This document shows, piece by piece, positions 22,594 to 24,842 of a DNA stretch of 64,000 nt (position 1 is its first letter; each line of letters begins with the position of its first letter). The stretch is from Sneathia sanguinegens (GTDB lineage: Bacteria; Fusobacteriota; Fusobacteriia; Fusobacteriales; Leptotrichiaceae), in assembly GCF_001517935.1 (NCBI RefSeq), contig NZ_LOQF01000002.1, forward strand, positions 62,001 through 126,000, in the 5' to 3' direction. A model generated the notes under the pieces. The model was not told where the DNA came from. It did not search any database and saw only the letters and a program-made list of their open reading frames with translations. The translations under genes were made by a program, and so were the position numbers.

Positions 22594-22622
22594 ATTATAT
22601 CAAATTATCAAATTTCTGTCAA
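22594..22622 (-). promoter_or_regulatory. consensus promoter of rpsF-ssb-rpsR
   Basis: Minus strand: TTGACA (22617-22622), exactly 17 bp, TATAAT (22594-22599): a perfect vegetative promoter located just behind the YadA-like gene. Confidence 0.85.
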
Positions 22623-22628
22623 ATTATA

Positions 22629-23198
22629 TCATTTTTTATTTATCAATTCTTTTAATTGCTTTATTTGTTCTTTTAAGTCACTCACTTCATTATTTAAATC
22701 TTTAATTTCTTTTTTCATTGAATCAATTGAGTTATTCTTATATTTTCCAAATTGAACTCCTAAACCTAATCCTACTGAAAAATTCCCTTTATGTGTAACT
22801 GAACTTGATAATCTATATGTTACTCTATCATCTGGCGAAACACCACTAACACCTAAAGCAAACGCATGATTTTTACCATAGTAACCATATGCTCCACTTA
22901 TTTGATGGCTATATTTAAAGCTTGAATTTGCCATTCCCAAATTAGCTATTGCTACAGCTGCAGATGTTCCATCATACAACCCACTTTTTTGATTTTCAGC
23001 CTCTTGCATTTCAATATTTTTTACACTCATTTTTTTAAATTCTTCATCTATATATTTTTTTGTATCTTCATTTAAACCTGCATTATGTGGAGTTTGTGAT
23101 CCTCCTTTATTAGGATTTCCTCCATTTCCGTCAAGCAATTGATTTCCAAATGCTAAAATTTGTAATAAAAATAATAATAAAGCTATTTTCTTTTTCAT
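22629..23198 (-). CDS. small YadA-type outer-membrane anchor protein with C-terminal coiled coil
   Basis: 189 aa. Signal peptide MKKKIALLLFLLQILAFG; a Gly/Asn-rich stretch; a short stalk (about residues 42-70); then a YadA-type anchor (about 70-153): ENQKSGLYDGTSAAVAIANL, the strand AYGYYGKNHAFALGVSGV, DDRVTYRLSSSV and GNFSVGLGLGVQFGKY. Such anchors trimerise into a 12-strand barrel. Most end at the last strand; here 36 more residues follow (IDSMKKEIKDLNNEVSDLKE...), a heptad coiled coil that should lie in the periplasm. There is essentially no adhesive passenger. It is 46 bases behind the outer-membrane protein gene and probably shares its switchable promoter. Confidence 0.82.
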   Translation of the reverse strand: MKKKIALLLFLLQILAFGNQLLDGNGGNPNKGGSQTPHNAGLNEDTKKYIDEEFKKMSVKNIEMQEAENQKSGLYDGTSAAVAIANLGMANSSFKYSHQISGAYGYYGKNHAFALGVSGVSPDDRVTYRLSSSVTHKGNFSVGLGLGVQFGKYKNNSIDSMKKEIKDLNNEVSDLKEQIKQLKELINKK

Positions 23199-23244: not shown

Positions 23245-24780
23245 TTATTTCCATTCATATTTCATATTAAAATTCAATTTCAAATATTCATTAATTGCCT
23301 TATCTGATAAATTTCTTTGTTTTTCTTTAGAAATATACTTATATTCTCCTTTAACAAATTTTAAACCTGCTATAGCTTCAGCATTAAGCATCAAATTATT
23401 TGTTACATTATATTTCAATTCTAAACCTACTTCACCTTTTAATCTATGCAAAAAATATTCATTATAGAACTTAGTATAATCATCAAGAGTTCCAATATGC
23501 TTTAAATGTCTATTTAAATATTCAACTCTTATTTTAGGAATTAAAGTCAATTTATCATTAATTTTACCTTCATATGCAGAATAAACATCCAAATCTAGAA
23601 AATTTCCCTTTGAAAAAAAACGTTCATTTCTTAAAGTCTCTACTATTCTAACTTTTGATCCAAGTAAATACTTATTTAAAAATTTATTACTTATTTCTGT
23701 ATTAAGTCCATATATAACTCCATTATTTTTTTCATATGTAACATAGGTGAAAATTGCATTTGCAAATGGCATAACCTTAATTTTAAAATCTTTATTAACA
23801 TATTGTACTTTTAGATATGATTTAAATACACTGCTTGGCTTACGTACATCATCTAAGTTAACACTATTAAAATAAAAATTTTGTGTCATTAATTGATCAT
23901 GTTCTTCACCATTATACGCTTCATATAAATATCCAGTTTCTTCTTCTGTATATAACTTTCTATAATCTCCAATACCAAAATAATTTAGATGTGCATATGG
24001 TTTTAACTTACTATATTTATAGTTCTTTATTGTAGCAAATTTTCCATCTATATTCACATTTTCATTAGCTTTTACACTAAAATCCAATCCTGTTGTAAAA
24101 TACGTATCATTTTCAGAACCCCAATCAGAACCATAATATTCAGGATCATTTATTACTACTTTTTCATTAAAATGATCTATGCCAAAACTTGTTTTAATAT
24201 TTGCTTTATTAGAAATATTAACATCCAAATAAATCTTATTTTGTGTTCTAAGTCTTTGTTCTTTTTCAATATAGCAATTAAGCTTATTATCTAAACCTAA
24301 TTTCACTCCACCTTTAAATTTAAAAGCTACATCTGCACCAAGTTGAACATATTCTCTATAAATATCTCCAAAATCTTCAGATTTAACTTTAGCTTTTAGT
24401 GTTACATCTGCTTTTTCATCTCTTATCATTGCATATTCTAAACTGGCTTTACTAGCTTTAGCAACATTTTGTTTGACATTATACATATAACTATTTAGTT
24501 CATCATAATTATCTGCATATTTAGGATAGTCAATTAATTTTCTTTTTTCCATATCTTTATTTAAAAAACGACTATATCCAATCTTTTTAAAATATAACTC
24601 ATCAAACCCTATATTAGTTTTAAATTTGAACTTACCTTGTTCTACATTCAATCTAATTCCTGCTTTATCAACCTTATTATTTCCATTACTTTCAACATAG
24701 AATTTTCCATATGTTTCTACATAACCCTTTGAAAAACTTACTAATGAAAGTAATAGGCTTAATACACATATTTTTTTCAT
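23245..24780 (-). CDS. putative outer-membrane beta-barrel protein
   Basis: 511 aa. Signal peptide MKKICVLSLLLSLVSFSKG, then strand-rich sequence with alternating polar and hydrophobic residues throughout (YVETYGKFYVESNG; LMLNAEAIAGLKFV) and an aromatic-rich final strand LKLNFNMKYEWK, typical of barrels in fusobacteria. No plug or passenger domain is recognisable and I cannot name a substrate. Its promoter has a nine-G tract between the -35 and -10, so expression is probably phase variable. The small YadA-type gene follows in the same direction. Confidence 0.78.
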   Translation of the reverse strand: MKKICVLSLLLSLVSFSKGYVETYGKFYVESNGNNKVDKAGIRLNVEQGKFKFKTNIGFDELYFKKIGYSRFLNKDMEKRKLIDYPKYADNYDELNSYMYNVKQNVAKASKASLEYAMIRDEKADVTLKAKVKSEDFGDIYREYVQLGADVAFKFKGGVKLGLDNKLNCYIEKEQRLRTQNKIYLDVNISNKANIKTSFGIDHFNEKVVINDPEYYGSDWGSENDTYFTTGLDFSVKANENVNIDGKFATIKNYKYSKLKPYAHLNYFGIGDYRKLYTEEETGYLYEAYNGEEHDQLMTQNFYFNSVNLDDVRKPSSVFKSYLKVQYVNKDFKIKVMPFANAIFTYVTYEKNNGVIYGLNTEISNKFLNKYLLGSKVRIVETLRNERFFSKGNFLDLDVYSAYEGKINDKLTLIPKIRVEYLNRHLKHIGTLDDYTKFYNEYFLHRLKGEVGLELKYNVTNNLMLNAEAIAGLKFVKGEYKYISKEKQRNLSDKAINEYLKLNFNMKYEWK

Positions 24781-24812: not shown

Positions 24813-24842
24813 ATTGTACCCCCCCCCGCCTTTTTTTGTCAA
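24813..24842 (-). promoter_or_regulatory. promoter with poly-G spacer (putative phase-variable switch)
   Basis: Minus strand: TTGACA (24837-24842), an 18-bp spacer made of six A, GGC and nine G, then TACAAT (24813-24818), about 33 bp before the ATG of the outer-membrane protein gene. Loss of one G would give the optimal 17-bp spacing; gains would weaken the promoter. Confidence 0.8.
24819..24827 (-). repeat. homopolymeric G9 tract in promoter spacer
   Basis: Nine consecutive G on the minus strand (C on plus) in an otherwise extremely AT-rich region; no other G/C run of this length was noticed in the window. Simple G tracts mutate by slipped-strand mispairing. Confidence 0.95.

Follow-up and report, generated by a model that had tools for sequence, protein, structure and literature searches.

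A passenger-less YadA-type anchor with a coiled-coil tail in Sneathia sanguinegens and its possible role in the cell envelope

The window analyzed in this study, a 64,000-nucleotide stretch of the Sneathia sanguinegens genome, contains on its minus strand (22629..23198) a gene for a type Vc (YadA-type) anchor of 189 amino acids, which lacks a passenger and ends in a C-terminal coil according to its reading frame, Pfam, AlphaFold2 and Foldseek. The gene starts with ATG and its stop-to-stop length is also 189, which means that the reading frame does not extend beyond this start. Since, in addition, the upstream gene ends at 23245, 46 bases from this ATG, no passenger is hidden upstream. The first 18 residues (23145..23198, minus strand) resemble a signal peptide; they were read by eye, cleavage before NQLL was assumed, and AlphaFold2 places a helix at residues 2-21. 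The following G/N/P-rich residues 19-43 (23070..23144, minus strand) were predicted with low confidence (pLDDT about 44-50, with segments 17-27 and 30-39 under 50) and are probably the sole part exposed outside the cell. A short stalk and pore helix (residues 44-85, predicted as one helix by AlphaFold2; 22944..23069, minus strand) lead to four anchor beta strands (residues 98-148; 22755..22907, minus strand), which would form a 12-stranded barrel if the protein is trimeric. The heptad coil (residues 157-189; 22632..22730, minus strand), identified by AlphaFold2 and heptad analysis, ends the protein with NKK. The order proposed in the first-pass annotation, a signal peptide, a short stalk, a YadA-like anchor and a coil, thus holds.

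YadA_anchor (PF03895) was the sole Pfam model above its cut-off in this protein (32.2 bits against 22.7, residues 99-150). The AlphaFold2 model, calculated for a single chain from a 16-row alignment (mean pLDDT 72), has strands at residues 98-107, 110-120, 126-135 and 140-148. Its top Foldseek match was the Hia translocator (3emo, E 8.8e-8; 2gr8, rmsd 1.4 A and target-normalized TM 0.89), and AtaA (9vnj) was also matched. The predicted chain therefore has the pore helix and four strands of a type Vc anchor in the fold of the Hia translocator. Hia and YadA, which share this fold, end at the last strand and carry a long passenger. Here a helix follows at residues 157-188 (block pLDDT about 85-91), so that the tail is predicted to be ordered on an anchor with a type Vc fold. 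The tail had been described as a heptad coil of 36 residues; its coiled character holds, with I, L, V or M at 9 of the 10 a and d positions in one register, while the strict heptad run is 32 residues long; when these residues were shuffled 200,000 times, 1 shuffle did equally well. In Pfam the tail also resembled prefoldin, DivIC and further models, all under cut-off, which reflects generic coil similarity.

No surface passenger (head and stalk) was found. Only 75 residues precede the anchor model, signal peptide included, and neither YadA_head nor YadA_stalk was matched in Pfam. As it has no passenger, the protein was filed under the anchor family and not as an adhesin. The genome contigs gave no matches with the 189-aa protein as a single query, and tblastn against plasmids returned only YadA-like anchors of E. 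coli (34%), with the match stopping at residue 150, before the coil. The 68-residue N-terminus is unique within its own genome, where a search with the N-terminus turned up no long sibling that begins in the same way. Among 58 complete unique genes whose start could be used, only a gene of Oceanivirga miroungae has a shorter stretch before the anchor (47 residues), and a Streptobacillus gene is next with 83; 6 of 64 genes with values of -19, -8, -8, 16, 20 and 29 were left out of this comparison as fragments or as cases in which translation does not begin at the first in-frame ATG.

The probable operon partner of the anchor gene encodes a 511-aa protein (23245..24780, minus strand), which belongs to no known family and has no homologue in 32 other genomes of the bacterial family (1 of 33, itself). 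It is a probable outer-membrane protein and likely co-transcribed with the anchor gene; AlphaFold2 without an alignment gave an uninformative model (pLDDT 29). No OmpA-type wall-binding domain of the kind expected of a co-transcribed partner in the AtaA-TpgA manner was found in it. A consensus scan placed promoter-like sites ahead of the 511-aa gene (11 of 12; 24813..24842, minus strand) and between the anchor gene and rpsF (12 of 12; 22594..22622, minus strand). Because of the latter site, known from the consensus scan only, rpsF need not depend on the anchor gene. The rpsF-ssb-rpsR genes are flanked by long trimeric autotransporters in the three Streptobacillus genomes read and by an OmpA-tailed one in G007 (names read from sequence). 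In Streptobacillus L095, L103 and L109, four to five of these autotransporter genes form an array. At the corresponding site in the congener (G001) lies a TetR-like gene, also named from sequence, and this genome has no orthologue of the 189-aa anchor.

The first-pass annotation regarded a tail after the anchor as unusual, on the ground that trimeric autotransporters normally end at the last barrel strand. This rule describes the Pseudomonadota controls, in which 0 of 14 anchors were tailed and all ended within 2 residues, and fails for this part of Fusobacteriota. The anchor is present at 15 places in the S. sanguinegens genome. Among the anchors selected for reading, we counted unique sequences whose match starts in the first five model positions and dropped fragments (such as L010, L142 and a 74-aa frame in L004). 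Tails of 23-75 residues were present in all 14 complete anchors read in S. sanguinegens and in 19 of 19 of the congener, and 3 of 3 complete anchors from two further genera of the same family were tailed as well. Coil-tailed anchors were also found in the sister family. There, 14 of 46 complete anchors, a set that takes in nearly all of the matches listed plus L031 and L032, have a tail, and 32 end no more than 5 residues past the anchor. For g4, g5 and g7, three genera of the same family, the census covered part of the anchors present; of the 39 counted, 17 run into a coil and 20 into an OmpA-type domain, while 2 lack both. The 189-aa anchor, with a coil that runs past the last strand and ends the protein, belongs among these coil-tailed fusobacterial proteins.

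Such tails are already published. In its available portions, the study of Bechon et al. 2020 (PMC7549365) describes coil or SLH domains after the YadA anchor in Veillonella, reports such additions also in Synergistetes and Fusobacteria, lists eight OmpA-domain trimeric autotransporters in Streptobacillus moniliformis, and calls the function of the coil unknown. The 189-aa anchor resembles these proteins in that it is fusobacterial, its anchor is not C-terminal, a coil follows, and Streptobacillus relatives carry PF00691. It differs from them in that they are adhesins with passengers, and the missing passenger is the distinctive feature here. By its description, Vpar_0045 of Veillonella parvula, almost wholly a YadA anchor domain, is similar; however, it belongs to another phylum and, in the portions available, was thought probably not functional by Poppleton et al. 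2017 (PMC5491611), who proposed wall binding for SLH tails. Long adhesins encoded in this genome also have the coil tail, which is therefore not special to the 189-aa anchor and is not by itself an argument for a tether.

The relatives in which the coil is followed by a further domain are more informative about the periplasmic side. An anchor-coil-OmpA profile matched at least 39 stop-free places in at least 7 genomes of the phylum (98 genomes), and among the matches listed all were in g4, g5 and g7; the named carriers are Oceanivirga miroungae and Streptobacillus notomytis. PF00691 scored above the Pfam cut-off in 10 of 10 OmpA-tailed relatives scanned, one of which (L098) has a YadA anchor slightly under cut-off (21.9 against 22.7 bits). 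In 20 unique relatives, 27-75 residues separate the anchor from the OmpA-type domain, compared with a tail of 38 residues in the 189-aa anchor. The Asp-x14-Arg pair, which binds diaminopimelate in the OmpA of A. baumannii according to the available text of PMC5974059, is kept in 20 of 20 unique OmpA-tailed anchors read. Two of these relatives are poor in passenger. The O. miroungae protein (L100:2280-3119, 279 aa) has its anchor from residue 52, counted from a non-ATG start (47 from the first ATG), and an OmpA-type domain at 171-273. The Streptobacillus protein (L096:2402-3346, 314 aa), with 3 nucleotide differences between two genomes, has its anchor from residue 82 and the OmpA domain at 213-314. 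Both have little or nothing to display and yet retain the putative wall-binding domain. Near the latter gene lies one that resembles an NlpC/P60 wall endopeptidase (L096:918-1445). Searches of open-licence literature, which for Bechon et al. 2020 covered passages of the text, yielded no description of trimeric anchors that lack a passenger and end in an OmpA domain. In the anchor tree the 189-aa protein joins the long adhesins of its own genus (33 tips, support 0.78), apart from the short OmpA-tailed proteins. The short, passenger-poor forms thus probably arose independently, and from this placement any envelope role of the 189-aa anchor would have arisen separately from that of the OmpA-tailed ones.

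Type Vc family topology puts the C-terminus in the periplasm. The OmpA-type peptidoglycan-binding domain at the same place in relatives agrees with this topology and supports the periplasmic C-terminus suggested at first pass. With no passenger to display, the protein most likely has its job on the periplasmic side. We therefore tentatively favor, with a probability of roughly 40%, a rivet-like role in the envelope for this protein, read as one of the coil-tailed fusobacterial trimeric autotransporters that is without a passenger. Three chains would form one 12-stranded outer-membrane barrel with three helices as a plug, only some 25 residues of each chain would lie outside the cell, and a coil of three helices, about 5 nm long, would hang into the periplasm. 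This rivet would lock the trimer and link the outer membrane with peptidoglycan or with a second protein of the envelope. A structural role facing the periplasm is plausible from sequence: in the 20 relatives an OmpA-type domain with the Asp-x14-Arg pair follows anchor and spacer, and two of them about as passenger-poor as the 189-aa protein carry the presumed wall domain. The AtaA-TpgA system of Acinetobacter, in which a type Vc anchor is joined in the periplasm to a peptidoglycan-binding protein (available text of PMC13082670 and PMC8151025), serves as a precedent for coupling of anchor and wall. TpgA is, however, a separate protein, and the 189-aa anchor has no such domain; in L100, the OmpA portion has some resemblance to the model for TpgA (NCBIfam NF047726), at 38.5 bits and so under the cut-off of 350.

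Several observations count against the rivet. No PF00691 domain follows the anchor in the 189-aa protein (Pfam), which is thus without a wall-binding domain. The same tail on the long adhesins of the genome (14 of 14 anchors) indicates that the tail needs no tether function. Coil length varies threefold within the genus, and lengths of 23-75 residues argue against a bridge of fixed length. The tree, too, sets the anchor beside long adhesins and apart from the short OmpA-tailed forms. Finally, the absence of an orthologue in G001 and the unique N-terminus fit decay of an adhesin equally well.

Such decay is the strongest of the alternatives, somewhat less probable than the rivet and on balance unlikely. 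At a site where adhesins recur, an in-frame deletion would have removed the passenger of a longer adhesin, with anchor and tail persisting without a function of their own. The long autotransporter arrays of Streptobacillus beside rpsF-ssb-rpsR suggest that the site turns such genes over; adhesin genes that come and go there keep this explanation alive. The gene was found in one genome only, and decay has a counterpart in the same genome: a truncated 82-aa anchor frame (L010:1090-1338, on C9) has the very tail that an intact gene of 274 aa carries in G001 (L180:163-987). However, the 189-aa gene retains a complete signal-like start, the anchor and an almost perfect heptad run, uninterrupted by stops or frameshifts, its N-terminus bears no trace of a passenger, and passenger-poor forms that keep the wall domain occur in two other genera.

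Less probable again is that the coil serves as an assembly aid or a "nut", which would register and hold three anchors before and after insertion and keep them from being pulled out, without touching the wall; in the present case the anchor it sits on would bear no load. This would account for coil tails on adhesins of every length and copes with variable coil length. In the available text of PMC5670179, the barrel segments of UpaG are already trimeric in the periplasm, and in that of PMC13082670, the N-domain of TpgA raises the force needed to extract simulated AtaA about twofold with no link to the wall, an arrangement compared to a bolt and nut. However, the 32 of 46 tail-less anchors of the sister family (among the matches listed, plus L031 and L032) and the 14 of 14 of Pseudomonadota indicate that a coil is dispensable for assembly in general, and the proposal gives no reason for keeping a copy without passenger.

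A more specific proposal follows the model of Braun lipoprotein (Lpp), a trimeric periplasmic coil with a terminal lysine and a lipid anchor and without a barrel. The 189-aa anchor shares the terminal lysine, has a predicted coil that would be trimeric, and differs in its barrel and in having no lipid anchor. Under this proposal, an L,D-transpeptidase would join the terminal lysine of fusobacterial coil tails to peptidoglycan, the trimeric barrel would replace the lipid anchor, the 189-aa protein would be a minimal dedicated tether evolved from an adhesin, and the sister genera would bind non-covalently through the OmpA domain. The C-terminal residue of 63 unique coil tails from two families is K in 47 and K or R in 54, a strong excess of lysine against a background of K in 15 of 57 window genes, with kinship ignored in this count. 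The genome encodes one YkuD L,D-transpeptidase protein with SHKCVRN, which we take to be its catalytic motif. YkuD is present in all tail-bearing genomes of the census and in 86 of 96 genomes of the order, and its presence is for that reason not discriminating. Since basic residues at helix ends are common and relatedness was left uncorrected as well, we consider a covalent link of this type improbable. Least probable of all is that the 25 exposed residues are themselves the working part as a displayed short peptide, for although topology places residues 19-43 outside the barrel and AlphaFold2 predicts them to be flexible, they match no family, have no homologue in their own genome, and as 25 flexible residues would make a poor adhesin.

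The rivet, favored over decay and over an assembly aid, bears on how the outer membrane is held to the wall in this organism. S. sanguinegens has a single OmpA-domain (PF00691) protein, an OmpA-like protein of 441 aa whose gene lies away from the anchor gene (L039 on C11); it contains a long charged linker, and we read it as the barrel type. No further PF00691 protein that could be Pal, no SLH protein and, by Pfam, no OmpH/Skp was found in the genome. With one OmpA-domain protein and no SLH protein, wall links in S. sanguinegens are few, which makes the attachment of the outer membrane to the wall in this reduced genome a question of interest. If the 189-aa protein is a remnant, it would offer a clear case of an adhesin decaying where such genes turn over. 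Should trimeric anchors without a passenger instead be tethers, parts of adhesins would have become building elements of the envelope, and the coil tails that dozens of adhesins in fusobacteria carry would gain a testable function that the literature, in the available portions of PMC7549365, leaves unknown.
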